A DNA stretch of 63,916 bases. It comes from Streptomyces violaceoruber (GTDB lineage: Bacteria; Actinomycetota; Actinomycetes; Streptomycetales; Streptomycetaceae). Position 1 is the stretch's first letter, and each line of letters begins with the position of its first letter. The translations under genes and the position numbers were made by a program. The stretch lies in contig JODI01000075.1 in NCBI GenBank assembly GCA_000720805.1, forward strand, positions 1-63,916, in the 5' to 3' direction. Positions 4,233-31,088 of the stretch are shown here, in pieces. Below the pieces are notes generated by a model. It searched no databases. It saw nothing but the letters and a program-made list of their open reading frames with translations, and was not told the origin of the DNA.

Positions 4233-5111
4233 ATGCCGCTCCCTGTCCTGTTCGGCGCAAACGTAGACCCAAGTGCCCTCCCTGTCGGCCGCTCCGGTGA
4301 GCAGGCACTACTCATCGACAGTCTCGGCCTTGACCTGCTCACCATTCAGGACCACCCGTACCAAGCGGCGTTCGACGACACCTGGACACTGCTCACCTTC
4401 CTGGCTGCGCGGACGCGACATGTCACGCTCGTCCCAGCGGTCAGTTCCCTGCCGTTGCGTCCGCCGGCGGTGCTGGCGAAGGCTGTCGTGACCTTGGACA
4501 GACTGGCCGGCTCCCGGGTCCAGCTCGGCCTGGGTGCCGGCGCCTTCTGGGAAGCCATCGACGCCATGGGCGGCTCCCGTCGCACGCCCAGAGAGGCCGT
4601 CGACGCACTTGAAGAGGCGATCACCGTCATCCGGGCCATGTGGAGTGGCGAGCGCAGTGTGCGGACGCACGGCGCGTACTACTCGCTCGCCGGCGTCCAC
4701 CCTGGCCCGGCGCCGAGCCCCGGTCTGGGGCTGTGGCTGGGCTCGTACGGACCCCGCATGCTGGCTCTGACCGGTGCGAAGGCGGACGGTTGGCTTCCCT
4801 CGCACGCCCACCTCGGACTCGACGCACTGCCCACGGCTGTCCGCCGCATCGACGACGCAGCTCTGGCGGCGGGCCGCGATCCGGACACGATCCGCCGGGT
4901 CTACAACATCGCCGGTGTCATACAACCGGGGTCGGACGGCCCGTTCCAGGGGCCCGCCGCCCAGTGGGCCGAGCAGCTTGTCGCGCTCGTGCACACCGCC
5001 GGGATGAACGGTTTCGTCATCTGGCCCGAACGAGATCACACCCGACAGATCAGCGCGTTTGCCGCCGAAGTCGTACCCGCAGTCCGCGAAGCCCTCGCCC
5101 GGAAGACCTGA
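4233..5111 (+). CDS. LLM-class flavin-dependent oxidoreductase (luciferase-like)
   Basis: 292 residues matching the bacterial luciferase-like monooxygenase barrel. Conserved pieces are LGLDLLTIQDHPY near the N-terminus, the flavin-region motif RVQLGLGAGAFW, the helix REAVDALEEAITVIRAMWSG, and the late segment LTGAKADGWLPSHA. AGGAGA precedes ATG 4233. Such enzymes use reduced FMN or F420, and the FMN reductase at 653 is a possible supplier. The protein is slightly shorter than typical members (about 300-350) but looks complete. Substrate unknown. Confidence 0.88.
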   Translation: MPLPVLFGANVDPSALPVGRSGEQALLIDSLGLDLLTIQDHPYQAAFDDTWTLLTFLAARTRHVTLVPAVSSLPLRPPAVLAKAVVTLDRLAGSRVQLGLGAGAFWEAIDAMGGSRRTPREAVDALEEAITVIRAMWSGERSVRTHGAYYSLAGVHPGPAPSPGLGLWLGSYGPRMLALTGAKADGWLPSHAHLGLDALPTAVRRIDDAALAAGRDPDTIRRVYNIAGVIQPGSDGPFQGPAAQWAEQLVALVHTAGMNGFVIWPERDHTRQISAFAAEVVPAVREALARKT

Positions 5112-12360: not shown

Positions 12361-12741
12361 ATCCGGCACCATGCCTGACCAGCCGGGCGTCAGGAGGGGG
12401 CGCTCGGTCCTCCGCGCAAGCCTGACGACGCCGCGGGACCGGCTCGCATCCGCGCCCGCGTCCGTCGGAATACGATCGTTCGCCGACAGGCAGCAGATGC
12501 GTCCAATGAACCCGTGCGATCCGGGGGTCCGCGGCGCCGCGAATCCCATCAGATCCGATGGTGATTGCTGACAGGGTTTGATGACAGGCAGGGTCCGATT
12601 CTCCGTACGGAAGGCGCCCTCGGTAGCGAACCTGGTCTACAAGCGGGTCTCGACCGACTAGCAGTCGACCGCCCCACAGGCCGACGGCGCGCTGGTCCCA
12701 TGCGGGTACGCGGGCCAGCCGGTCAGGGCTGGTCAGAGCCG
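12361..12741. other. Non-coding stretch with a resolvase remnant
   Basis: 381 bases after the TetR stop. The only recognisable content is the short resolvase-like remnant at 12581-12685. No terminator or promoter was convincing. Confidence 0.45.
12581..12685 (+). pseudogene. Serine recombinase (resolvase) N-terminal remnant
   Basis: Reading from ATG 12581, the segment ANLVYKRVSTD followed by an in-frame TAG (12659-12661) and then QSTAPQ resembles the active-site start of Tn3-type resolvases (YxRVSTDQQSTxxQ). The CAG codon after the Asp appears mutated to TAG. After about ten more codons the similarity stops. Only some 35 codons survive, so this is tentative, but a resolvase fragment fits the Tn3 transposase fragment 1.7 kb upstream. 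Confidence 0.45.
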
Positions 12742-12960
12742 TCAGGCGGGTGGCCGGCTTCGCAGGGCCATGTCGGCCACCTGCTGGAGGTCGTCGCGTG
12801 AGGCGCCGCCGGCGGCTTGGACGGCGATGCCGTTCGCCACGGTCATGAGGTAGCGGGCGAGTAGTTCAGGATCGGTGTCGGGAGGCAGGTCGCCTTCGTC
12901 GACGGCTTGCCGGAACCGGTCGCGGAGAAGGGAGGTGTGCTCGTTGCGCCGCGCGACCAC
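12742..12960 (-). pseudogene. TetR-family regulator, C-terminal fragment
   Basis: The 72 codons (ARRNEHTSLLRDRFRQAVDE, DLPPDTDPELLARYLMTVAN, then GIAVQAAGGASRDDLQQVAD) match the end of the ligand-binding domain of TetR proteins. There is no DNA-binding domain. The frame stays open upstream as far as the transposon end at 13026 but shows no HTH, and none is found beyond the other transposon end either. The N-terminal part is therefore lost. Confidence 0.7.
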
Positions 12961-13021: not shown

Positions 13022-13026
13022 GTCGG
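13022..13026. repeat. Target site duplication, left copy (GTCGG)
   Basis: GTCGG directly precedes the left terminal repeat at 13027 and recurs directly after the right terminal repeat at 23805-23809. A 5-bp duplication is the size made by Tn7-like and Mu-like DDE transposases. Confidence 0.7.
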
Positions 13027-13049
13027 TGTGACTGAGCGCCGTAGTTGGC
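13027..13049 (+). repeat. Left terminal inverted repeat of the Tn7-like element
   Basis: Begins TGTGACTGAGCG and ends TAGTTGGC. It matches the right end at 20 of 23 positions in inverted orientation and is one TnsB-type site with its outer end at 13027. Confidence 0.75.
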
Positions 13050-13058
13050 ACCGATAGA

Positions 13059-13081
13059 CAACTAGGGTGCTCAGTCCGACA
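13059..13081 (-). repeat. Second TnsB-like site at the left end, in opposite orientation
   Basis: Read on the minus strand from 13081 it is TGTCGGACTGAGCACCCTAG followed by TTGTC, clearly related to the terminal repeats. It faces the left terminal repeat head to head across about 10 bases. Tn7-type left ends normally carry their sites in one orientation, so this inverted copy is odd. It could be part of the end, a leftover end of another element, or an operator. Confidence 0.55.
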
Positions 13082-13145
13082 TGCTGCTTGTGTCAGGCGC
13101 AGCCCCGCTCCCTCAGCTCCTTGGCTGCGGCGCTGCGGGAGCCGC

Positions 13146-13620
13146 TCAGGGCCGGTGTGCGGCGCCTTGATCGTTGCTGGCCCTCTTGTCCGGTTGGTGG
13201 ATTCCGTCGAGTGTGGCGGCCCAGCTGGCGAGCAGTTTGAGGCCATCTTCCGATGGGCCGCAGGGCTCGGCGCTCATCGCAGTGAGAGTCAGACCGGGGT
13301 CGGTCGGCACGGGAAACGCTTCGAAGGCGAGGGTGAGGTCGCCGATCGCAGGGTGGTGGAAGCGCTTCAGGCCGGAGTGGTGCAGGCGCACGTCGTGCGC
13401 GGCCCACAGCGAGCGGAAGTCCTCGCTGCGGGTGGAGAGTTCGCCGATCAGGTCCGTGAGGTCGCGGTTGTACGGGTCCTGCCCGGCCTCGGTGCGGAGG
13501 AGGGCGGCAGCCGCGGCCCTCTGGTGGTCGAGTTCGGTCATGTACTGCGCGGCGCCGGGATTCAGGAACTGGTAGCGGGCCATGTTGACCGGCCGCGCGG
13601 GGTCCTGGAACAGCGGCCAG
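13146..13620 (-). pseudogene. XRE-family regulator fragment (MmyB-like ligand domain only)
   Basis: The open frame matches the C-terminal MmyB-like domain of streptomycete XRE regulators: YWPLFQDPARPVNMARYQFL, YNRDLTDLIGELSTRSEDFR, AAHDVRLHHSGLKRFHHPAI. It aligns well with the second half of the intact regulator at 20575 (YDRNLTDLIGELSTRSDIFR). The HTH domain and first half of the ligand domain are missing. At about 13620 the frame runs directly into the 5'-truncated SDR on the opposite strand. A single deletion that removed both 5' ends of a divergent pair explains this. Confidence 0.75.
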
Positions 13621-14103
13621 TATCCAGGTTCCGCCCTCGGACGCCGCCGACGAGACGGCCGAGAACTTCGACCGCGTCAACGCTGTCAACCTGCGCGTGT
13701 GTGGGCGGCCCAGAAGCACGAGCTGCGCCAGATGCGCACCCAGGGCTCCGGCGCCGTCGTCAACTGCTCCTCCCTCGGCGGGCTGGTCGGCCTGCCCGAG
13801 CGCGCCGCCTACCACGCCTCTAAGCACGGGGTGATCGGCCTGACCAAGAGCGCCGCGGTCGAGTACGCACCGAAGGGCATCCGCATCAACGCCGTGTGCC
13901 CAGGCGTGATCGAGACCCCTATGGTCGCCGACATGCTCGAGGGGCAGGCCGAAGCCATGGCCGCAATCATGAGCGAGCAACCCATCGGGCGCCTCGGCCA
14001 GGCCGAGGAGGTCGCTGCCGCTGCCCTGTGGCTGTGCAGCCCGGGCGCCAGCTTCGTGGTGGGCGTAGCCCTGCCCGTCGACGGCGGGTACACCACCCAC
14101 TGA
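13621..14103 (+). pseudogene. SDR-family dehydrogenase, 5'-truncated and frameshifted
   Basis: Starting near 13621 (ETAENFDRVNAVNLR), a short-chain dehydrogenase is recognisable without its cofactor-binding N-terminus of some 80 residues. One G seems missing near 13695, since NLR should continue GVWAAQK; after that the frame shifts and continues VWAAQKHELRQMRTQGSGAV, then the catalytic Ser (NCSSLGG) and YHASK, then INAVCPGVIETPM and the C-terminal DGGYTTH. Homologues next to XRE/MmyB regulators are common in Streptomyces. It cannot make an active enzyme. Confidence 0.8.
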
Positions 14104-14540
14104 ACGCTGCCCCGAAGCAGGGCGACCGGCCGCCGATGCACTGAGACCTCTGGCCAGCTGAGCCGCCACTCAGCAAGAGGCCCGGGTCGACTCCGACTGC
14201 TGGTCACCCCGGCCTGCGTGACCGCGTCCGCGTCACATCCGGCAGTCACGGGGTGCTTTTGGCGGGAGGGATGCCCTGTCAGGGCCCCCTTCGCAGGGCC
14301 TGCCTATCGGAGCGTGGAACGGGTTATCTGGAGGGTGTAGATCTCCTCTGCTTGCGCTGCTGGCGGGGGCGGGTGGAGGTCGCAGTCTTGAGTACGGGCC
14401 GCCTTGGGCGGGCGATTCGGGTGACAGCGGGGTCGGCCGGAAGCGCCTTGCGTCCCCGGGCGCGGCACTCGGTCTTGAATGGCCGGTGACCTCGGGGAGT
14501 GCCTCCAGCGGCCGATCAAAGCTTGTGAGGAGCAGTATCC
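14104..14540. other. Intergenic region with a terminator-like hairpin
   Basis: 437 bases without a supported gene. CACCCCG (14205-14211) can pair with CGGGGTG (14249-14255), an inner hairpin (GTGAC/GTCAC) lies between, and CTTTT follows, so this may terminate the truncated SDR transcript. The promoter for the next operon should be in the second half but was not identified. Confidence 0.4.
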
Positions 14541-15557
14541 ATGCGTGGTGTTGTGATGCACGCCCCCGGGGATGTCCGTGTGGAACAGCGCGAGGACCCC
14601 AAGATCCTTCATCCGACCGACGCGGTGATCCGGCTGTCGGCGAGTTGCGTGTGCGGGTCGGACCTGTGGCCTTATCGCGGGGCCGAGGCCGTGGAGGGCC
14701 CCACTGCGATGGGCCACGAGTATGTGGGTGTTGTCGAGGAGGTGGGTAGCGAGGTCAAGAACGTCCGGCCGGGTCAGTTCGTGATCGGTTCGTTCTTCGC
14801 CTCCGACAACACCTGCGAGATCTGCCAGGGCGGCTATCAGTCCTCCTGTGTCCACCGCGAGCTGGTGGGCGGTGCACAGGCGCAGTACATGCGCGTTCCG
14901 CTCGCCGACGGCACGCTGGTCGCCACCTCTGAGATGCCGTCCGAGGATCTGATTCCCAGCTTCCTGGCGGCCTCCGATGTGCTGGGGACCGGCTGGTTCG
15001 GCGCCGTCGCGGCCCAAGCCGGTCCGGGGAAGACGGTTGCGGTGGTCGGTGACGGCGCGGTCGGCCTGCTCGGCGTCCTGGCTGCCAGGCAGCTTGGTGC
15101 GGAGCGGATCATCGCGATGAGTCGACACGCATCCCGGCAGAGCCTGGCCCGTGAATTCGGTGCCACCGACATCGTCACCGAGCGCGGCGAGGCGGGCGTG
15201 GCCCAGATCAAGGACCTGACCGGTGGCCTGGGCGCGCACTCGGTCATCGAGGCGGTGGGCACCCAGCAGTCGATGCTGCAGGCGATCGGCTCCACCCGTG
15301 CCGGCGGGCACGTCGGCTTCGTCGGCATGGCCCACGACGTCGCCCTGGACGGACAGCACCTGTTCTTCTCCCACGTCCACCTGCACGGCGGCCCCGCCCC
15401 GGTGCGCCAGTACCTGCCCCAGCTGATCGACCTGATCCTCAAGCGGGAGATCGATCCCGGCAAGGTCTTCGACCTCGCCCTCCCCCTGGACGAGGCCGCC
15501 GAGGCGTACAAGGCCATGGACGAACGCCGGGCGATCAAGGCCCTGCTGCAGGTGTGA
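14541..15557 (+). CDS. Zinc-dependent alcohol dehydrogenase family protein
   Basis: 338 residues. The catalytic zinc ligands are Cys38 (VCGSD) and His59-Glu60 (GHE). Cys92, Cys95 and Cys103 resemble the structural-zinc loop, though one cysteine of the usual four is not obvious. The NAD(P) loop is VAVVGDGAVGLLG. The start follows GTGAGGAG. It heads a plus-strand operon with a cupin (63-base gap), a carboxymuconolactone decarboxylase-like protein and an SDR. Likely oxidises an alcohol or reduces an aldehyde; substrate unknown. Part of the transposon cargo. Confidence 0.9.
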   Translation: MRGVVMHAPGDVRVEQREDPKILHPTDAVIRLSASCVCGSDLWPYRGAEAVEGPTAMGHEYVGVVEEVGSEVKNVRPGQFVIGSFFASDNTCEICQGGYQSSCVHRELVGGAQAQYMRVPLADGTLVATSEMPSEDLIPSFLAASDVLGTGWFGAVAAQAGPGKTVAVVGDGAVGLLGVLAARQLGAERIIAMSRHASRQSLAREFGATDIVTERGEAGVAQIKDLTGGLGAHSVIEAVGTQQSMLQAIGSTRAGGHVGFVGMAHDVALDGQHLFFSHVHLHGGPAPVRQYLPQLIDLILKREIDPGKVFDLALPLDEAAEAYKAMDERRAIKALLQV

Positions 15558-15620
15558 CCCTCACGCCCGCTCGCTATGGCGTCCACTGACTGAACACCGC
15601 ATTCGCTGAAGAGAGACATC

Positions 15621-16028
15621 ATGGAATTCGTCACCCCGCAGGCCACCGTCAAGGCCCCTGCGGACTGGTTCACCGGCGACGTCTGGTTCGACGTGATCTA
15701 CGCCGGCCAGGAGCCGTCCCGGATGCGCGCCAACCTGGTCCGCTTCTCCCCCGGAGCCCGCACCCACTGGCACTCTCACGTGCTGGGCCAGACCCTGCAC
15801 GTGGTCTCGGGTATCGCCCTGATCGGCACGCGTGACGGCACGGTCTTCGAGGCCCACCCCGGCCAGACCGTTACCTGCCCACCGGGGGAGGAGCATTGGC
15901 ACGGCGCCACCTCCGACCGGTTCATGGAGCACATCGCCATGTGGGAGGGCAAGGGCGACGGCAGCAAGGAAACCACCTGGAACGAGCCCGTCACCGACGA
16001 CCAGTACAACCGCCCCCGCAGCCGCTGA
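15621..16028 (+). CDS. Cupin domain protein
   Basis: 135 residues of the small cupin family commonly encoded next to carboxymuconolactone decarboxylase genes. Motif 1 is THWHSHVLGQTLHVVSGIAL (three histidines in THWHSH), and motif 2 CPPGEEHWHGATSDRFMEHI completes the metal site. AAGAGAG precedes ATG 15621. It lies between the alcohol dehydrogenase and the decarboxylase-like gene, with short gaps on both sides, so these are probably cotranscribed and act on the same compound. Confidence 0.9.
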   Translation: MEFVTPQATVKAPADWFTGDVWFDVIYAGQEPSRMRANLVRFSPGARTHWHSHVLGQTLHVVSGIALIGTRDGTVFEAHPGQTVTCPPGEEHWHGATSDRFMEHIAMWEGKGDGSKETTWNEPVTDDQYNRPRSR

Positions 16029-16056
16029 CCCGACCCCCTGCCCAGAAGGAATGTGC

Positions 16057-16383
16057 ATGACTGACCAGCCGAAGCAGGTCGGCGGCGGACGCCGCACGAT
16101 CGGCGACATCGCCCCCAAGCTCGCCGAGCTCACCGACGACGTCCTGTTCGAGGACGTGTGGAACCGTCCCGGCCTGACCGCCCGCGACCGTAGCCTGATC
16201 ACCGTCGCCGTCCTCATCGCCGGCGGCGACGCCGACCAGCTCGCCTTCCACCTCGGACGAGCCAAGGACAACGGCGTCACCGAGACCGAGCTCATCGAAG
16301 CGATCACCCACCTCGCCTTCTACGCCGGCTGGCCCAAGGCCATGACCGCGATCACGGTCGCGAAGCAGGTCTTCGCCGCCTGA
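16057..16383 (+). CDS. Carboxymuconolactone decarboxylase (CMD) family protein
   Basis: 108 residues with the CMD signature: DRSLITVAVLIAGGDADQLA, FHLGRAKDNGVTETELIEAI and HLAFYAGWPKAM. The peroxidatic CxxC of AhpD-type members is absent, so this is the decarboxylase-like branch. ATG 16057 is chosen over ATG 16051 because AGAAGGA ends right at 16050. Cupin plus CMD pairs are frequent but few have a proven substrate. Confidence 0.9.
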   Translation: MTDQPKQVGGGRRTIGDIAPKLAELTDDVLFEDVWNRPGLTARDRSLITVAVLIAGGDADQLAFHLGRAKDNGVTETELIEAITHLAFYAGWPKAMTAITVAKQVFAA

Positions 16384-16544
16384 GCCCCCCTACAGCTCCC
16401 GCCAACTCCTCCTCGTGCCGCCGTGCGACTTCACGCCCGGCGGCACGACGGCACTCCAACGCAGCCCGACCGGACCCGGCCGGCTGCGACGAAGGGAAGG
16501 AACACCCAGATGCGAGAAGCAGACTTGGACAGGGTGGTGCGTTC

Positions 16545-17270
16545 GTGAGCCGGATCCTGGTGACCGGTTCCGCGGACGGTCTCGGACGCGCCGCGGCCGA
16601 ATCCCTGCTGTCCGCAGGACACGACGTCATCGTCCACGCCCGCAACTTTGAGCGTGCAGCAGTTCTCGACACGCTGGTCGGCCGCGGGGCTCACTTGATG
16701 CTCGGCGACTTCACCGACCGTGACGCGGTTCGGCGTATCGCCGCCGAGCTGAACGACGCCGAACCGCTCGATGCGGTCATCCACAATGCCGGCGTGTGGA
16801 GCGGACGCCCCGTCATGCCGGTCAACATCATCGCCCCTTACCTGCTCACGGCCCTGCTGCACTCACCGCGCCGGCTGGTGTATCTCAGCAGCGGCTCGCA
16901 CTTCGGCGGGCATCCCTCGCTGAACGGGGTCGACTGGCAGGGCTCGAGCGCGGGCTCGTACTCCGACAGCAAGCTGTTCGTCACCACCCTCGCAGCCGCC
17001 GTGGCCCGCCTGCGCCCCGGCGTGCTGAGCAACGCCGTGGACCCGGGCTGGGTGCCGACCAAGATGGGCGGACCAGGTGCGCCGGACGATCTGGAACTCG
17101 GCCACCGCACGCAAGAGTGGCTCGCGACGAGCAACGATCCCGAGGCGCTGACCACAGGCGGGTACTGGTACCACCGCCAGCGGCAGCAGCCGCACCGCGC
17201 CGTGCACGACGAGGCGTTCCAGGACCGCCTCCTCCAGGTGCTGGCTGAGGAGACGGACATCGCGTTGTGA
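16545..17270 (+). CDS. SDR-family NAD(P)-dependent oxidoreductase (atypical)
   Basis: 241 residues. ILVTGSADGLGRAAAESLL is the TGxxxGxG cofactor loop, HNAGVWSG replaces NNAG, and the active site is YLSSGSHF with YSDSK. GYWYHRQRQQPH near the C-terminus is typical of a subgroup that lacks the usual C-terminal signature. GTG 16545 is the first codon with family similarity. It ends the plus-strand operon and is followed by a strong terminator. Confidence 0.85.
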   Translation: MSRILVTGSADGLGRAAAESLLSAGHDVIVHARNFERAAVLDTLVGRGAHLMLGDFTDRDAVRRIAAELNDAEPLDAVIHNAGVWSGRPVMPVNIIAPYLLTALLHSPRRLVYLSSGSHFGGHPSLNGVDWQGSSAGSYSDSKLFVTTLAAAVARLRPGVLSNAVDPGWVPTKMGGPGAPDDLELGHRTQEWLATSNDPEALTTGGYWYHRQRQQPHRAVHDEAFQDRLLQVLAEETDIAL

Positions 17271-17329
17271 GCGGTGAAGGGCCGCCCTCCGGCCGTGCCG
17301 ACCGCCGCATGGGCGAGTGACGGCACGTG

Positions 17330-17369
17330 CGTGAGGGGCCTCCCGGCAGGTGCCGGGAGGCCCCTCACG
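17330..17369. terminator. Strong terminator hairpin
   Basis: CGTGAGGGGCCTCCCGGCA (17330-17348) pairs perfectly with TGCCGGGAGGCCCCTCACG (17351-17369) across two bases. A TCTTT follows. It separates the plus-strand operon from the convergent minus-strand SDR and may serve both. Confidence 0.85.
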
Positions 17370-17420
17370 TCTTTGCTGGGCCGGACTTGCCGGACGTGTG
17401 GACGTCAGTGCCGGGCCTCG

Positions 17421-18200
17421 TCATCCGATGAGGTTGCCTCCGTCGACGGCGACGATGCTGCCGGTCATGTAGCTCGCGGCGTCGCTCGCCAGGAAGAGCG
17501 CGACCTTCGCGACGTCGTCGGGCTCCCCGAGCCGCCGCAGCGGGACGCGTTCGATGATCTGGTTGACGTTCTCACTCGAGGAGTCGTCCATCGCGTCCAC
17601 ACCGGGAGTGCGGATCAGTCCGGGCGCGATCCCGTTCACCCGGATGCCGAACTTGGCGAGGTTCAGCGCGAGCGACCTGGTGAGCATGACGACTCCGCCC
17701 TTGGAGGCGTCGTAGGTCTCGAAGTCGATGTTCGGCTTGAATCCGCCGGTGGAGGCGAGGTTGATGATCGTCCCGGGGCGCTCTCGTGCGCGCAGAGCGC
17801 GCACGAATGCCTGGCTCTGGAACATCAGCCCCTTCATATTGACGTCGATCATGCGGTCCCACTGCGCCTCGGAGAGGTCGAGCAGCGGCACGTAGCTGTA
17901 GACGCCGGCGTTGTTGACCAGCGTGTCCAGGCGCCCGAACCGGGACTCGGCGAAGCGCACGAGGGCCTCGCTGTCGGGGATCGAGGTCGCGTCAGCCCTG
18001 AAGGAGGCAGCCGTGCCGCCTTCTGCCTGGATCGCGTCGGCGGTCCTTCTCGCGGCTTCCTCGCTGATGTCGGCCACGACGACATGTGCGCCGGCGTCGG
18101 CGAGACGCGAGGCGATGGCCGCGCCGATGCCGTTTCCTGCGCCCGTGACGATCGCGACCTGTTCCGATAGGTCGAAGATCTGCGCAGTCGTCTGATTCAT
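17421..18200 (-). CDS. SDR-family oxidoreductase
   Basis: 259 residues, classical short-chain dehydrogenase. GAGNGIG is at 20-26, NNAG follows TLV, the active site is NLASTGG with YDASK, and the C-terminus is SIVAVDGGNLIG. ATG 18200 is where family similarity begins; the ribosome site is weak and an upstream extension is unrelated. The adjacent SDR and the MFS gene are on the same strand, so cotranscription from the MFS side is possible. Substrate unknown. Confidence 0.9.
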   Translation of the reverse strand: MNQTTAQIFDLSEQVAIVTGAGNGIGAAIASRLADAGAHVVVADISEEAARRTADAIQAEGGTAASFRADATSIPDSEALVRFAESRFGRLDTLVNNAGVYSYVPLLDLSEAQWDRMIDVNMKGLMFQSQAFVRALRARERPGTIINLASTGGFKPNIDFETYDASKGGVVMLTRSLALNLAKFGIRVNGIAPGLIRTPGVDAMDDSSSENVNQIIERVPLRRLGEPDDVAKVALFLASDAASYMTGSIVAVDGGNLIG

Positions 18201-18433
18201 GAGATGTCCCAAGGGATTGCTTATCGGTGCTATTGCCGTTGGGGCGCCCGACGAGCTCGCTCGGCAGGGCACCGTATGTGTCCAGGACGTCGGCGGGAGG
18301 GGCACGCGTCCGTAGTGGTGGGCCTCTTTGCTCGTGTGGCTCTTCCTGGTCGCTTAAGGGGTGCAGGGGCCGGGCTCGGCCTCGTCGGCTCGCGCCGCGG
18401 CCCGATGGGCGGCCCTTACGTCGTTGACGTGCA

Positions 18434-18452
18434 ACCCGGCACAGTGCCGGGT
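18434..18452 (-). terminator. Hairpin at the 3' end of the second SDR
   Basis: ACCCGGCAC (18434-18442) and GTGCCGGGT (18444-18452) form a perfect 9-bp stem around a single base. It overlaps the last base of the stop codon of the gene at 18452-19111. Confidence 0.5.
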
Positions 18453-19111
18453 CAGTCGCGCAGCAGTTCGTGCCGCCACTCGGCCTCGGGCTGGTGGTGC
18501 AGGTCGAGGTATGCCTGGGCGAGGACGGCCGGGTCGAAGCGTTCCTCGCCGCCGCCGATGGCTCCGGCGATCGTGATGCTGGTGGCGTGCACGCCCGTTC
18601 CTGCCACATGGGTGTGCAGGGCCTGGACGTACGCGCGCAATGCGGCCTTGCCGATGGACAGCGACGTGTACTGCGGGGAGGGGAACAGCGCGAGACCGCC
18701 GCCGGTGAACAGCAGGCTTCCGCGGCCTTCACGCAGATGGGGCAGGACGGCGTCGGCCGCGACCCGGGCTCCCAGGACGTTGACGGCGGTGACGTCGGCC
18801 CAGTCCTTATCGTCGCCGCCTACAGGCTGGTCCTCGCGGACCACGCCGGCGTTGTAGACGAGCACGTCCGGTGCGCCCAGCTCGGAGATCGCGGTGTGCA
18901 GCGCGGCGCGCAGGCTGTCGGGGTCGGCTGCGTCTGCGGCGTAGCCGCGCACGTCCCGGCTGGTGGTGGTGAGTTCGGTGGCGTAGGTGTCCAGCTTCGC
19001 CTTGTCACGGGCGAGCATCGCGACCGGGTGTCCGGCATCGGCAAACGTGCGGGTGAGCGCCAGGCCGAAGTCGGGTCCGACGCCGACGATGATTGCAGTT
19101 CCGAGGGCCAT
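18452..19111 (-). CDS. SDR-family protein with non-canonical active site
   Basis: 219 residues. The cofactor loop is IIVGVGPDFGLAL, with TGxxxGxG replaced by VGxGPxFG. YNAGVV stands for NNAG. The catalytic segment FTGGGLALFPSPQYTSLSIG is followed by KAAL, so the usual YxxxK is not kept. Such short SDRs are widespread in actinobacteria and their activity is uncertain. AAAGGACC lies just upstream of ATG 19111. It is 125 bases downstream of the MFS exporter on the same strand. Confidence 0.82.
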   Translation of the reverse strand: MALGTAIIVGVGPDFGLALTRTFADAGHPVAMLARDKAKLDTYATELTTTSRDVRGYAADAADPDSLRAALHTAISELGAPDVLVYNAGVVREDQPVGGDDKDWADVTAVNVLGARVAADAVLPHLREGRGSLLFTGGGLALFPSPQYTSLSIGKAALRAYVQALHTHVAGTGVHATSITIAGAIGGGEERFDPAVLAQAYLDLHHQPEAEWRHELLRD

Positions 19112-19236
19112 GGTGGTCCTTTCTCAGGGGAACGCCAGCAGAGAGGTGCCCTGTTCGTGGTGGGCGTTCTGCAGGGCTGGGCTGATCTGCGGCAGGCGTC
19201 CGGGTCGTGGGTCGTGGGTCGTGGGGGAAGCGTCAG

Positions 19237-20472
19237 TCAGGTGAGCGACAGGGTCCGTCGCGTCACCGCCCAGACGATCAGAGCGAGGACGAACAGGACG
19301 GCGGCGCCGCCCATCACCAGGGCCCATCCGCCGGTCTGCCACAGGGCGGCCGCCAGCGCGGAGCCGATGGTGCCGCCGATGAAGTTGCAGGTGACGAAGG
19401 CAGTGTTCAGCCGGCTGCGGCTCTGGGGCTCGATGCTCATCAGCCGGGTCTGGTTGAGAACGTTGACCGCCTGTATCGCCGTGTTCAGCAGCAGGACCAC
19501 GATCAGCACGATGACGATCGAGTGAGCGCCGGTGGCGCTGAGCAGGACCGAGGCCAGGGCCAGCAGCAATCCCGCGCCGGTGGCCGGCACCGACCAGCCG
19601 CGGTCGTGCAGACGGCCGGCCCGCTGGGCGACCAGGGCGCCGGCCAGGCCGACGAGACTGAGCAGACCGATCTGGGTGGCCGACCAGTCGAAGGGGGCGG
19701 CGCTGAGCAGGAAGGTCAGGGCGGTCCAGAACAGGGTGAACACCATCATCGTGACGGCTCCCAGGACCAGCGTGACCTGCACCGACCGGTGACGGCGCAC
19801 GGCGGTGATCACCGATGCCAGCAGGGCCGGGTAGCTGGTGGAGGTCCGCGACGGCATCGTCGGCAGCACACGGGCCAGGACCGCGGCGAGAACCACCATG
19901 AGAGCGGCGGCCGCCCAGTAGATGGTGCGCCAGCCGAAGGCGTCGGCGACCACGCCGCTGATCGCCCTGGAGACGAGAATGCCGATCAGGATGCCGGATG
20001 CGACAGTGCCGACGACCCGGCCGCGCTGGTCGTCACGCGCCAGATCGCCCGCCAGCGGGATCAGCAGCTGCCCGGCCACCGTCGTCACCCCTACCAGTGC
20101 GAAGGTCACCAGCAGCGCCGTGAAGCCCGGAGCGACGGCACTGGCCGCCAGGGCGAGAGCCGACGCCAGCATGATCACCGGGATGAGCCGGCTCCGGTTG
20201 AGCCGGTCACCCAGCGGTACCACCAAGAACGCTCCGATCGCGTAGCCGATCTGCGTCACGGTAACCAGCAGCCCGGCCGAGCCGGGGCTGATGTGCAGCG
20301 AGCCGGCGATCGTGTTCAGCAGCGGCTGGGCCCAGTACAGGTTGCCGACCGCGGCACCGCCGGCCAGCGCGAACAGCAGCGTCAACGGTCCGTTCATGCC
20401 GCGCGCGCCAGGAGCGGACGCGGGAGGCGCAGCTACCCGTGCCGGGGCTGCAGCCGTGGTCTTGTTCGTCAT
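19237..20472 (-). CDS. MFS transporter (drug efflux type)
   Basis: 411 residues with about twelve hydrophobic segments. The N-terminal half has GNLYWAQPLLNTIAGSL and the motif-A-like GDRLNRSRLIPVIML; both are typical of the YnfM/Bcr-like branch common in Streptomyces. The start follows GGATGCC weakly. The gene is divergent from the XRE/MmyB regulator with about 100 bases between, so it is probably the regulator's target. It may export the substrate or product of the dehydrogenases carried in the same element. Confidence 0.9.
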   Translation of the reverse strand: MTNKTTAAAPARVAAPPASAPGARGMNGPLTLLFALAGGAAVGNLYWAQPLLNTIAGSLHISPGSAGLLVTVTQIGYAIGAFLVVPLGDRLNRSRLIPVIMLASALALAASAVAPGFTALLVTFALVGVTTVAGQLLIPLAGDLARDDQRGRVVGTVASGILIGILVSRAISGVVADAFGWRTIYWAAAALMVVLAAVLARVLPTMPSRTSTSYPALLASVITAVRRHRSVQVTLVLGAVTMMVFTLFWTALTFLLSAAPFDWSATQIGLLSLVGLAGALVAQRAGRLHDRGWSVPATGAGLLLALASVLLSATGAHSIVIVLIVVLLLNTAIQAVNVLNQTRLMSIEPQSRSRLNTAFVTCNFIGGTIGSALAAALWQTGGWALVMGGAAVLFVLALIVWAVTRRTLSLT

Positions 20473-20574
20473 GGCATCCAGGCAACCAACATCGCGCGCA
20501 GTGCGGCAGGACGTGTTGAAGGGGGTACTGGCAAGTCCTCCTTAACCACGAACGGGGTGCCTACCGTGGAAGAC

Positions 20575-21468
20575 ATGGACCATCGCCGCCAGATCCAGGA
20601 ATTCCTCGCCTCCCGCAGGGCTCGGATCAGCCCCCAGTCAGTCGGGCTGCCTGTGGCCGGACGCAAGCGGCGCGTGCCCGGCCTGCGCCGCGAAGAGGTC
20701 GCCGCCCTGGCCGGGCTCAGCGTCGACTACTACATCCGCCTGGAACGCGGCGCACTCACCAACGCCTCCGACAGCGTCGTGCACGCCATCGCCCGCGCAC
20801 TGCAGCTCGACGAGACCGAACAGGCCCACCTGATCGACCTCGCCCGCGCCGGACATGCGGCTGCCACTCCCTCCCGGCCCAGGCGTACCCCGCCCGCGGC
20901 GATCGCCCCGCAGCTGCAGACCGTCCTGGACGCCCTCGTCGGCGTCCCCGCCCTGGTGCGCAGCCCCACCCTCGACGTGGTCGCCGCCAACCCCCTGGCC
21001 CGGGCCCTGTACAGCGTCATCTACACCGACGTGCGCACAGCGCCGAATCTGGCCCGGTTCACCTTCCTCGACCCCCAGGCCGAGCGGTTCTGGCGTGACT
21101 GGGACCGCGTCGCCGACGACCTCACCGCCCACCTGCGCGCCGCCGCCGGCGCCACCCCCTACGACCGCAACCTCACCGACCTCATCGGGGAGCTGTCCAC
21201 CCGCAGCGACATCTTCCGCCGACTGTGGGCCCGCCACGACGTACGCGCCTACGGCCGCGGCACCAAACACTTCCACCACCCCGTCGTCGGCGACCTCGAC
21301 CTGCGCTACGACCTCCTTGAACCGGCCGCCGAACCCGGCCTGACCATGATCACCTACACCGCCGAACCGGGCACCACCTCCCACGACAACCTCACCCTGC
21401 TCGCTTCCTGGGCAGCCAGCCAGGACAACAACGCCAAGCACCTCCAGGCCCCCTCGCCTCACGAGTAG
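20575..21468 (+). CDS. XRE-family regulator with MmyB-like ligand-binding domain
   Basis: 297 residues. The N-terminal HTH includes RRVPGLRREEVAALAGLSVD and YYIRLERGALTNASDSVVHA. The C-terminal MmyB-like PAS-type domain contains YDRNLTDLIGELSTRSDIFR and RHDVRAYGRGTKHFHHPVVG. This class usually represses a divergent SDR or MFS gene. ATG 20575 matches the usual family start; GTG 20566, with GGGGTG upstream, is possible. It is paralogous to the fragment at 13146-13620, so the element carried two such regulators. Confidence 0.9.
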   Translation: MDHRRQIQEFLASRRARISPQSVGLPVAGRKRRVPGLRREEVAALAGLSVDYYIRLERGALTNASDSVVHAIARALQLDETEQAHLIDLARAGHAAATPSRPRRTPPAAIAPQLQTVLDALVGVPALVRSPTLDVVAANPLARALYSVIYTDVRTAPNLARFTFLDPQAERFWRDWDRVADDLTAHLRAAAGATPYDRNLTDLIGELSTRSDIFRRLWARHDVRAYGRGTKHFHHPVVGDLDLRYDLLEPAAEPGLTMITYTAEPGTTSHDNLTLLASWAASQDNNAKHLQAPSPHE

Positions 21469-21577
21469 GGCAACGGCAGGTCACACCGCCTGCACACCGG
21501 GACAGCTCTCCATCGACCACGGCGCTCACATTCTCCAATCAACAACCCGAACGCCGGACCCGGATCCAGAGTGACTT

Positions 21578-22258
21578 TCAGCGATGGCGATTTCGGCGAC
21601 CTGGGTGCAGGGCGCCGAGAGGGACGCCGAGGTAGCGGGCGGCGGCGAGGCGGGTGTGGCCGGTGGCCATCTGGACGAGGCGAATCGTCGCGTCCCTGCG
21701 CAGGAGCCGTTTCGGGGCGTCGAGGTCATCGAGCGGGGCGGCCCAGTGTTCGGGCAGGACAGCGGGGATGGCGCGAGGGTCGAGCCGGCCGCGGTGGGTT
21801 GCGGGTTGCGGGAAGAAAGCGGGCTTTCCGACGTTCTTGTGGCGGACTCGTACGCCGGTGCGGATTACGGCGCTCATGGCCGGTGAGCAGTGCTGGGAGA
21901 GTGCGCGCAGGCGGATGTGGGTGGTACTGGTGGAGGACAGGCCGGACATCAGCTCCAGGAGGGTGTTCGGCCCTTGCGGATCGTCGAGGATGGCAACCGA
22001 CAGGGCCAGCATGGCCGCGGCGTGGAGTGGGTCGGCGGGCAGCTGTCCGAAGGCGCGGGCTACTCGGCCGTTGCCCATGGAGGCGGTGCGCTGGGCACCC
22101 AGGGGGCTGATGGCTTCGCTGTGTGCTGCGAGGGCCTCGGTCTCTGTGCCGTGTGGGAGGGCCTCGCGGGCGGTGGACCAGCCGCCGCGCAGGGCGAGGA
22201 CGGTGGCCCGGACGTCGTTGAAGAAGCGCTGGGTGGATACCTGCTGCCCCAGACTCGC
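21578..22258 (-). pseudogene. tniQ: TniQ-like transposition protein, C-terminal fragment
   Basis: The frame is open from about 22258: ASLGQQVSTQRFFNDVRATV, then HAAAMLALSVAILDDP, LDPRAIPAVLPEHWAAPLDD and TRLAAARYLGVPLGAL. The layout (SLGxxV..RFFxDxR, then IPxxLxxxxW, then an AAxxLGxP helix) fits the C-terminal half of actinobacterial TniQ proteins, which pick target sites in Tn7-like elements. The zinc-binding N-terminal half is missing and the sequence joins directly to the tnsB fragment. Assigned from remembered family features, so moderately sure. Confidence 0.6.
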
Positions 22259-22261
22259 GAC

Positions 22262-22847
22262 CTCGGTCTGCGGAGCGGCGCTGGCGGGCCCCGCCTGGCC
22301 CGAACCACTCCCGCCACACCCGCGCCAGCGTCGTGCGGTGCGGCACCCGCACCTCCCGGTCGGGGAAGACCTCCCGCACGTACTGGTGGATCAACCGCTC
22401 CCGCGAGGCCATGCTGATCCGCGACCGGCGCAGACACTGCTCGTGCACCGCACGGATCGCCTCCTCCACCTCGGCTGTCACCGAAGGATGTCCGCCGGCC
22501 TGCCGGGTCCACCGTCCGTCGGCCAGCCCGGCCAGGCCGGACTCCCGATAGCGGGCGGCCATCCGCTTCAGGGTGCGCTCGCTGACCGACTCCAGTCCGA
22601 GCTGGGCGGCCTCGATCTCCGACAGCATGCCGAGCTCGGCGACCTTGGCCCGCCGGCGCTCGCCCAAGCTGGTCCTCGCCGGGTCAAAGGCAGGACGGGG
22701 CTCTCCCGGGCGGGCCCAGTGGCGGCTGCCGCTGCGAAACCCGGTCTCGACCTCCAGCACGTGCTCCAGCCGGACTCGCGCCCGGGCCAGATCATGCTCG
22801 GACAGCTCCTCGACCAGCGGTGTGCGGCCACCCGCGTCAGTGGTCAT
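22262..22847 (-). pseudogene. tnsB: TnsB/Mu-like transposase, N-terminal fragment
   Basis: From ATG 22847 about 190 codons match the DNA-binding N-terminus of actinobacterial TnsB-type transposases: ARVRLEHVLEVETGFRSGS, ERTLKRMAARYRESGLAGLA, ISMASRERLIHQYVREVFPD and TTLARVWREWFGPGGARQR. The DDE catalytic core and C-terminus are absent; near 22260 the frame passes into the tniQ fragment. The ATG would overlap the stop of tnsA (ATGA) once the adjacent micro-inversion is undone. Confidence 0.75.
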
Positions 22848-23655
22848 GACGCAACCGGGGGATCCGCTGGGTCTGGAGGAGCAGCTGCTCGCGGCGGCAG
22901 TCGGCCCCCGTCGCTTCCGGGAGCTGATCGCTGCGACCTTGTGGCCGGTGCCAGCGAGGAACCATCTGCTGCGCCTGCTCTGGCGGCGGCGCTTGGCCTT
23001 CGACCTGGTCGGACCGCTGGAGGACGGCACGTGGATCTATTCGCGGACGACGCCCCCGCGTTAAGGCCTCCACCGCGTCCACGACGCCGCCCCGCCAGCC
23101 CGTCACCACCTGATACCGCCAGCCGGCACAAGCCGCGACACGGGCGGTGGCGGCGAACACGGTGACGTCCGACTCCTTCACCAAATGGGCCGGGCGAACG
23201 TCGATCAGCAGCGCCAACTTTGCGGTGGCGACCAGGAAGTCGGGGATGTGCTCCCGTCGGCGGCCCGAGTCGAAGAACCGCAGGCTGAAGGGCTGCGACA
23301 ACACATCCCGGACTCCGCCACAGAAGTCCAAAACCGTCAGCGTTCTGCGCTCGGCCAGGCTCTCGAAGCCATGCCCACGCCCCGTCGCCTGCATGAACGC
23401 CAGCCCGGGCCGATGGCGCTGCCCCGGACGCCACGAGAACGCACGAACAGGCTGGGCCTGCCCCCAGGGGAACATGGCCAGGTCACGTACAGCACACACG
23501 ATCTCGTCCCCGCCGACCCGCCAGGTCGCCGTCCACCTGCTCGCCCAATCAGGACGCGGGTCGAGGGCCTCCCCGCAGGCCGCCGCGTACGGCGCGACCA
23601 ACTCTTCGAACCCACAGCAGTGGGACCACACGCACCCCTTATCGGCACCCGGCAT
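22837..23655 (-). pseudogene. tnsA: TnsA-like heteromeric transposase endonuclease, C-terminus scrambled by inversion
   Basis: The first 200 codons from ATG 23655 match TnsA-like endonucleases: PWGQAQPVRAFSWRPGQRHR, GRGHGFESLAERRTLTVLDF, VLSQPFSLRFF, REHIPDF and LLIDVRPAHL. The acidic residues of the nuclease site are kept, but the usual Lys after the last Asp is Arg. After EALTRG the family's winged-helix C-terminus is missing from this strand and appears instead on the plus strand (GLEEQLLAAAVGPRRFRELI and HLLRLLWRRRLAFDL), inside 22856-23058. The present open frame ends in unrelated residues. Confidence 0.72.
22856..23058 (+). other. Inverted segment carrying the tnsA C-terminus
   Basis: The plus strand here encodes DPLGLEEQLLAAAVGPRRFR through GTWIYSRTTPP, the expected C-terminal domain of the minus-strand tnsA. 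The segment is bounded by CGGGGG (22856-22861) and CCCCCG (23053-23058), an inverted pair. Flipping the interval restores an in-frame join EALTRG-DPLGLEEQ. It also gives a stop that overlaps the tnsB start as ATGA. Confidence 0.72.
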
Positions 23656-23740
23656 GCCTCAAGGGCACCGCGCAGAACCTCCTCGATACGGCGGAACCAG
23701 CAAACCACCCTGATCGGAACGGACCAGGCGCTACCCTGCG

Positions 23741-23800
23741 GGCCAACTTCCGCGCACAGAGGCCAACTAGCGTGCTCAAGGGCCAACTATCGCGCTCAGT
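23741..23800 (-). repeat. Three abutting 20-bp TnsB-type binding repeats, right end
   Basis: Units start at 23741, 23761 and 23781 with exact 20-bp period and consensus GGCCAACTNNCGYGCNCAR. The outermost one runs into the right terminal repeat. They lie 86-145 bases upstream of the tnsA start. Closely packed TnsB sites at the tnsA-proximal end are a hallmark of Tn7-type elements. Confidence 0.75.
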
Positions 23801-23804
23801 CTCA
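23782..23804 (-). repeat. Right terminal inverted repeat of the Tn7-like element
   Basis: Read on the minus strand from 23804 it begins TGAGACTGAGCGCGATAG and ends TTGGC. It matches the left end at 20 of 23 positions. Confidence 0.75.
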
Positions 23805-23809
23805 GTCGG
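23805..23809. repeat. Target site duplication, right copy (GTCGG)
   Basis: Identical to 13022-13026 and directly adjacent to the right terminal repeat. Confidence 0.7.
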
Positions 23810-24025
23810 TCGGCGTTCCACCGCGCCTGCCGAGTCGCGGTGTTCGAATTAAGTTCGATACGGTGGTCGCAGGGCGGGGGAACTGGCCCTGTGGTTGGAG
23901 GTGGGCGGCATGTCGCGAAGTTCGTGCGTCCGATTCCTCTGTGTCGGCGAGCCCGGCGCCCCCCGCATCGACCAGGCGCCACGGACCGCCCCGGCCCCCG
24001 CCGTGGCGCCGGGGCGGGGGCCGGG

Positions 24026-24811
24026 GTGAGCGCGCGTCAGCGGCACATCGCCCACCTCCACCTGCACGCCGCTCTGAGCGAGGCCCAGTACGGCGACATG
24101 ATCGAACTGATGTCCGGCATCACGCCTCATGTCCAGGCCGTCCCGCCGGACGCCGTCCAGCTCGACCTGACCTCGGCGCTCAGATACTTCGACCTGTCTC
24201 CGTACGACATGGTCCAGACGGCGATGATGAGGCTGAAGCTCTTCTACGACATCGACAGCAGCGCCGGGCTCGCCAACAACCGCATGCTTGCTTCCATGGC
24301 GGCCGACGCGTCCGCCCCGGGCGACACCACCTGGGTTCCCGACGGGCAGGCCGCCGACCACCTGGTTGCCGACCTCGTATTCGAGCGGGACTGCCTTGAT
24401 CCGGCACGGCATCACCGAGCCGTCCTGGGGCTCGCCGAGCAGATCGGCAGGCGCCTGCGCGGCGAAGGCCGGATCGCGACCCGGCTCGCCCTCACCGTGC
24501 GGTACGCCGACCGCAGCTCCACCACGCGTACTCGCGGGCTGCCGGAACCCACCAACCACTCACCCGCACTCGCCACCACCGCCCTGGGGTTGTTGACCGC
24601 CCTCGGGTTGCAGCGAGCACGGGTGCGTGCTTTCGCGATCCGCGCCGACGGTCTGCTGCCGGCCGGCAGCGCCTACCGCCAGCTCTCCCTGGACCCCGGT
24701 GACGCCCGCGCCCGCGCAGCCGAAGCCGCCGCGGACCGCGCCCGTCGGCGCTTCGGGCAGGAGGCCGTGGGTCCAGCGGCTCTGCGGACTGACCGATACG
24801 GTCCGGGCTGA
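24026..24811 (+). CDS. DNA polymerase Y-family-like protein with internal deletion
   Basis: 261 residues from GTG 24026. The N-terminal part (HLHLHAALSEAQYGDMIELM, PPDAVQLDLTSALRYFDLSP) and C-terminal part (LALTVRYADRSSTTRTRGLP, ALGLQRARVRAFAIRADGLL) match a streptomycete Y-family polymerase-like family of about 330-370 residues. The middle, including the GIGP-type helix-hairpin-helix region, is missing: VPDG joins directly to QAADHLVADLVFERD in frame. The palm also lacks the usual catalytic acids at the start. It may therefore be a non-functional remnant or a shortened accessory factor. It lies just outside the right end of the Tn7-like element, and the stop codon falls in a 28-bp direct repeat. 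Confidence 0.65.
   Translation: MSARQRHIAHLHLHAALSEAQYGDMIELMSGITPHVQAVPPDAVQLDLTSALRYFDLSPYDMVQTAMMRLKLFYDIDSSAGLANNRMLASMAADASAPGDTTWVPDGQAADHLVADLVFERDCLDPARHHRAVLGLAEQIGRRLRGEGRIATRLALTVRYADRSSTTRTRGLPEPTNHSPALATTALGLLTALGLQRARVRAFAIRADGLLPAGSAYRQLSLDPGDARARAAEAAADRARRRFGQEAVGPAALRTDRYGPG

Positions 24812-29993: not shown

Positions 29994-31088
<1,095 letters not shown>

Follow-up and report, generated by a model that had tools for sequence, protein, structure and literature searches.

The stretch of DNA analyzed here, referred to as the window, comprises positions 1 to 63,916 of contig JODI01000075.1 of Streptomyces violaceoruber (assembly GCA_000720805.1; 63,916 nucleotides). It contains a 10,778-bp element (13,027-23,804) lying between two copies of GTCGG, with tnsA, a truncated tnsB and the tail of tniQ running inward from its right (R) end; an initial annotation made from the sequence alone had described the element and its tnsA/tnsB/tniQ-like sequences. 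As a decayed Tn7-like transposon it is nothing unusual. Its anatomy and the relatives that share its ends indicate that it is quite probably a non-autonomous remnant of a Tn7-like transposon belonging to a Streptomycetaceae family, a grading that takes in the steps of the mechanism proposed further on.

TnsA is recognized by the NCBIfam profile NF033179 with 117.2 bits (cut-off 110); against Pfam PF08722 it scores 23.8 bits, under the cut-off of 26.5. For TnsB and TniQ, tblastn to relatives recovers an N-terminal part of TnsB (approximately 185 residues only; the related loci L106, L140 and L220 have a long tnsB) and a C-terminal part of TniQ, and Pfam matches neither. On the tnsB frame NCBIfam gave two IS-transposase matches only, both below cut-off. 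The label 'decayed' is upheld by the same tblastn searches, which found no catalytic part of tnsB, no tnsC (the TnsC/TniB ATPase) and no N-terminal part of tniQ within the element. Since TnsB and TnsC fail this test in the window copy, we do not count it among complete Tn7-like elements. Missing from the initial annotation is a 219-bp inverted stretch that encodes the C-terminus of tnsA; no 8-bp inverted repeat is shared between its junction regions.

The two ends (13,027-13,049 and 23,782-23,804) agree as inverted repeats at 20 of 23 positions, an identical GTCGG lies directly outside both, and three repeats at the R end are spaced 20 bp apart, all as first described. The left (L) terminus reads TGTGAC and the right TGAGAC, one change from the TGT...ACA pattern. 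To judge from their sequence, these ends hold putative transposase-type sites, two on the left and three on the right; the second, inverted left-end site had gone unnoticed. The site motif, allowing up to two mismatches, occurs six times in the window against 0.53 expected, a count reached in none of 100 shuffles, and five of the six occurrences sit in the two element ends (the stray one is at 30,607). A brute-force scan of positions 8,001-29,000 for inverted 23-mers lying 3-20 kb apart and matching at 20 or more positions returned 14 pairs, of which one has identical 5-bp flanks; in two shuffles there were five pairs and one pair, none of them identically flanked.

The cargo predicted initially (alcohol dehydrogenase, cupin, CMD, SDRs, MFS and XRE) was confirmed with Pfam. 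In the left flank, the homology of a TetR remnant (best matches) ends approximately 67-76 bp short of the element, and TetR therefore seems not to have been cut directly by it. Beyond the right end lie an SOS-box-like sequence and an imuB copy, both additions to the initial account (Table 1).

Table 1. Features of the element and its flanks, in window coordinates
Feature	Position	Strand	Basis
TetR remnant in left flank	12,731-12,950	-	
Left target-site duplication GTCGG	13,022-13,026	.	flanking sequence and family duplication statistics
L-end terminal transposase-type site (putative)	13,027-13,048	-	motif scan
L-end inner site (putative), inverted; outer edges 41 bp apart	13,058-13,076	+	motif score
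MmyB-like regulator remnant (MLTR_LBD), cargo	13,149-13,676	-	Pfam
Zinc alcohol dehydrogenase, cargo	14,541-15,557	+	
Cupin, open frame, cargo	15,594-16,025	+	Pfam
CMD family, open frame, cargo	15,823-16,380	+	Pfam
SDR-type open frame, cargo	16,194-17,267	+	
SDR, cargo	17,421-18,305	-	
SDR, cargo	18,452-19,111	-	
MFS transporter, cargo	19,237-20,472	-	Pfam
XRE/MmyB-like regulator, cargo; start codon chosen by eye	20,575-21,468	+	Pfam
tniQ C-terminal remnant	21,605-22,252	-	tblastn to relatives
tnsB N-terminal remnant, without catalytic part	22,278-22,832	-	tblastn to relatives
Inverted C-terminal segment of tnsA	22,846-23,064	+	tblastn to relatives
tnsA body	23,032-23,658	-	NF033179
R-end site 3 (putative)	23,743-23,758	+	motif scan
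R-end site 2 (putative)	23,763-23,778	+	motif scan
R-end terminal site (putative)	23,783-23,804	+	motif scan
Right target-site duplication GTCGG	23,805-23,809	.	flanking sequence and family duplication statistics
SOS-box-like sequence, 39 bases outside R end, spacer one base short	23,844-23,858	.	
imuB-like Y-family polymerase copy, internal deletion relative to G177	24,026-24,811	+	

A family of ends, with and without transposition genes

The ends of the Streptomycetaceae family correspond to TGTGACTGAGC. A search for other elements with the same ends, as the initial annotation had suggested, was productive: the terminal motif TGTGACTGAGCGNNRTAGTTG, with up to one mismatch, is present in 67 of 392 genomes of the genus, and a reversed control pattern has no occurrence among the matches listed. 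We fetched 80 loci, most around terminal-motif matches and a few around TnsA matches, and analyzed them together with the window. Identical 5-mers lie outside 17 of 41 opposed end pairs called with up to two mismatches (shuffle mean 0.72, maximum 4). The counts are 19 of 58 pairs at up to three mismatches, 20 of 146 at up to four (two of these 20, one of 245 bp in L108 and one of 787 bp nested in L140, are doubtful), and 0 of 18 for the reversed pattern. With a fitting anatomy in the window and 5-bp duplications far above chance in the same-end relatives, the original Tn7-like reading stands.

R ends of the family carry two or three direct sites, approximately 20-22 bp apart. In the subfamily of the window, the L end consists of a terminal site and an inverted second site with outer edges 41 bp apart; by score this layout is found in the window, L105 (second element), L106, L108, L113, L121 and L143, with decayed versions elsewhere by eye, and the L140-L142 clade deviates from it. 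Relatives of TnsA, TnsB, TnsC and TniQ are all present in L106, L140 and L143 (tniQ of L143 is split between frames), and TnsC/TniB is found in these three, in L105 (broken) and in L220. The latter, from a named S. californicus plasmid (NZ_CP070247), has a 16,859-bp element with the target-site duplication AAGAT and annotated TnsA-like, DDE transposase, TniB, TniQ and arsenic genes; the incomplete L220 gene table lists no cas genes, and no search aimed at cas was made.

Other members appear to consist of cargo only. In 12 of the 20 duplication-flanked pairs obtained at the loosest end threshold (10 without the two doubtful ones), tblastn with E up to 1e-4 found no match to tnsA, tnsB, tnsC or tniQ. 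These units contain TetR and SDR genes (L123, L142), PhyH and AraC/GyrI (L108) or MIP and glyoxalase (L121); the others, where scanned, contain genes without a Pfam match. Copies of a 1.3-kb unit (L107) are present at 96% in an NBC_00826 plasmid and at approximately 92% in S. anulatus plasmids, in alignments that begin at one element end and extend 3-7 bp past the other. The S. anulatus copy is arranged as GCCTT-element-GCCTT, and pSLE2 and the S8 plasmid provide empty sites for it, with related uninterrupted sequence and a single GCCTT. Genome G275 has two copies of a 1.9-kb derivative at different loci, more than 99% identical over most of their length. The copies of the 1.3-kb mini-element in G000 (C77) and G177 (C70) appear by eye to descend from a single insertion and were therefore rejected as evidence of mobility.

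SOS-box-like sequences outside right ends

We scored resemblance to an SOS box over 12 positions in the interval 25-60 bp outside each end, with C or T allowed at position 6, a spacer of 4 (or of 3 at the cost of one point) and a threshold of 10. Among R ends, 10 of 54 from genomes and 10 of 23 from plasmids (with one record counted twice) have such a sequence, compared with 0 of 33 L ends (dyad-type) and 0.38% of 20,000 random positions; for genome R versus L ends, Fisher p = 0.011. When only C is accepted at position 6, the counts are 9/54 for R ends, 0/33 for L ends and 4/46 for ends assigned to neither type, with a background of 0.27%. All but one of the 20 positives have the box 36-50 bp from the end, the outlier being a genome locus at 28 bp (L173) that may be chance, and in four box-positive cases the distance from annotated start to end varies from approximately 65 to 128 bp.

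The motif was first noticed, before scoring, in the genome set and in the plasmid loci L217, L218, L220 and L221. In a later plasmid test set of 14 matches, picked from 40 of 92 records, four are positive, including L225, a duplicate of L214, and the near-duplicates L229 and L230 are among the negatives. Because homologous promoters recur, the box counts are not independent, and we do not rely on binomial p-values, which assume that they are. A general enrichment of dyads near R ends was rejected (mean score 4.18 vs 4.13 in shuffled sequence).

In the dnaE2 and imuB cases the coding starts differ and the common promoter sequence is TCGAAY-N3/4-GTTCG, at 39-45 bp. It resembles the S. venezuelae LexA motif tCGAAC-N4-GNNCGa, and the same source names dnaE2 and the neighboring dinP as LexA targets (PMC9380542). 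Two more kinds of gene stand behind weaker matches: a small FPEDL-type open reading frame (L106, L120 and L214; the L120 box scores 9, below threshold) and a second open reading frame (L115, L224). The window fits the pattern, with a box 39 bp from the R end and then the imuB copy. The stretch between dnaE2 and ligD is without insert in plasmid L241, holds a 1.1-kb alpha/beta-hydrolase cassette in L242 (box at 42 bp), and holds the 16.9-kb element plus a mini-element in L220; since approximately 68 bp differ at the junction, L241 is not an exact empty site. The TniQ proteins of L106 and L220, both of which have R ends at SOS-like boxes, are 58% alike; by tblastn, the remnant in the window stands nearer to them (51.7% to L106, 43.9% to L220) than to L140 (37.3%), and L223 gave no TniQ match in this comparison.

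We propose that the Streptomyces Tn7-like family may read LexA operators, either as sequence or as LexA-bound DNA, as one landing pad. Autonomous elements and transposase-less cassettes would then accumulate, on linear plasmids as well as chromosomes, upstream of SOS promoters including those of the mutasome (dnaE2/imuB), which could link transposition to DNA damage. In our judgement this proposal is about equally likely to hold or to fail. Several observations weigh against it: the box of the window has a spacer of 3 bases; 44 of the 54 genome and 13 of the 23 plasmid R ends have no SOS-box-like sequence; four of the 46 ends assigned to neither type do have one, and two of those, in L140 and in L141, which derives from it, are the ends distal to tnsA, a result that goes against a strict R-end rule and leaves L140 ill-suited as a non-SOS comparator for TniQ; 29 TnsA loci yielded 17 loosely called ends, all without a box (no end was called at three of these loci, L106, L140 and L143); and an XRE gene promoter, the argC promoter and the neighborhoods of tpg-like genes are re-used as sites as well.

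Re-use of the XRE-gene and argC promoter sites would also suit recognition of the start of certain genes, dnaE2 and imuB among them, in the way that TnsD recognizes glmS; the SOS box would then be a bystander in the promoter. Conserved genes are the usual targets of Tn7-like elements (PMC11406308). However, for at least four different-looking kinds of gene (the last two by eye) a box-like sequence lies similarly far from the end, with the gene itself at varying distances, and we consider gene-start targeting possible though doubtful.

The 10.8-kb stretch as a probable single mobile unit

That the 10.8 kb moved as one unit, as initially claimed, is likely, and short of proof. Two points count against it. 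Where the annotation had expected an empty site, the joined flanks gave one-sided matches only among the matches listed for 392 genomes of the genus (with two candidates per genome scored), and there was no empty site among the listed matches of 81 relatives, a set that overlaps the 392. In addition, insertion of this family recurs at one spot, so that stacked elements can share a duplication and the matching GTCGG becomes weaker proof of a single unit. The NBC_00826 copy of the mini-element (L214) and the L242 cassette, which have no matching 5-mers, count against the remnant reading more generally. In G177, of the same species, the imuB part of the joined flanks alone was matched. A paralogous TetR-SDR-imuB locus on contig C112 of the same genome as the window (G000; L053 1,400-3,860) was rejected as an empty site, with no alignment upstream of the box and no end detectable there; by eye, the imuB copies of C112 and of the window bear different internal deletions.

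The L and R ends might instead derive from two elements stacked at one landing site, with the inner ends deleted and the interval a fused array. Stacks do exist: L217 (8,001-10,596) has two small tandem elements, each of the three junctions reading TCCAG, and after them a truncated third right end; a mini-element abuts the autonomous element of L220; spacers of 4-7 bp separate abutting ends there and in L105, L111, L116, L132 and L140; and the duplication-flanked stretch of L106 has an extra R-type site near tnsA and another 2.5 kb before the outer R end. After same-site insertion, a shared duplication would be expected even from two elements. Inside the window element, however, the best end-site scores are 10.0 (17,026 and 18,085) vs 11.0-12.0 for real sites, and L106 and L220 likewise have their cargo between tniQ and the L end, which leaves a fused array unlikely. 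Chance inverted repeats around native genes, with no transposon at all, have next to no probability: cargo-type genes are found elsewhere in Streptomyces plasmids, but motif, duplication and TnsA are combined here, and the family statistics add to them.

In Tn7-like transposition TnsB binds the end sites, TnsA cuts the other strand, and TnsC links to the target-reading TniQ or TnsD. For the single unit that we favor, a TnsABC-TniQ machine as in the relatives would have bound the direct sites of the R end and the site plus inverted site of the L end, excised the unit and inserted it with its R end facing the operator, duplicating 5 bp. TniQ would be the target reader, reading the operator region, and the R end would usually join nearest the operator, L140 and L141 being exceptions; such joining would explain why one spot is used repeatedly and why elements stack and share duplications. 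A later internal deletion and inversion would have taken out the element's own machinery, and the element, like its cargo-only relatives, would now require a transposase in trans.

Compared with known Tn7-like transposons, the family is like them in the TnsA, TnsB, TnsC/TniB and TniQ of its relatives, its end-site arrays of approximately 20 bp and its metabolic cargo, and unlike them in landing at SOS-box-like operators and in the inverted site pair of the left end. A survey of 6,549 Tn7-like elements starts from tnsB, around which its stated method scans (PMC8649781, methods as stated there); the present family has duplication-flanked units without a detectable transposition gene, and searches starting from tnsB would miss such transposase-less cassettes. 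The Tn5053/Tn402 'res site hunters' (PMC11406308) similarly have one TniQ and insert beside a protein-bound site on plasmids, but Tn5053 lacks TnsA and uses a resolvase, whereas here TnsA is present and the site is LexA-operator-like. Tn6022 (comM) and the TnsD-glmS elements share site-specific Tn7-like insertion, at sites in or beside coding sequence (PMC10293859); here insertion lies upstream of an operator-like sequence. In the open-licence literature, judged mostly by title and start of abstract, we found no description of operator-proximal targeting or of transposase-less cassettes for Tn7-like elements. If our proposal is true, an operator-type target joins the known Tn7-like attachment sites and offers a concrete test of what TniQ reads. 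By a cassette-like route, with single or paired metabolic genes flanked by ends and lacking transposase, oxidoreductases, regulators and metal resistance could be exchanged between Streptomyces plasmids. Tn4811 of S. lividans is likewise a Streptomyces transposon with oxidoreductase genes, though we claim no kinship.

Other recurring landing sites

Flanks that recur beside ends belong to dnaE2, imuB, an XRE gene (MASLNVGNL...), argC and tpg-like genes. Upstream of the conserved XRE-family gene, ends lie 24-26 bp from a dyad in L117, L123, L142, L194, L198 and L203. The last three come from 20 further genomes with this site, in which their family-like ends were placed by eye 25-26 bp from the same dyad; L201 has a doubtful end, and 16 have none in the stretch read. 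In eight other genomes the XRE gene lies 2-14 kb from a match to the other flank of L123. Ends in L128, L143 and L035 lie 26-31 bp from a sequence before argC resembling what we take to be an ARG box, the L035 end being different and loosely called. The right ends of L111, L121 and L147 stand beside genes that presumably resemble the one for the terminal protein Tpg.

Upstream of dnaE2 in G177 (C38; L054 ~4,540-4,900) a peptide resembling TnsA (by eye) accompanies a TGTTCGAA sequence, which may make the mutasome promoter a hot spot in this species as well. On plasmids L232 and L238, right ends lie approximately 30-33 bp past the stop codon of an XRE regulator, with a TCGAAC-N7-GTTCGA-like sequence at 37-40 bp that is spaced too widely to score as an SOS box.

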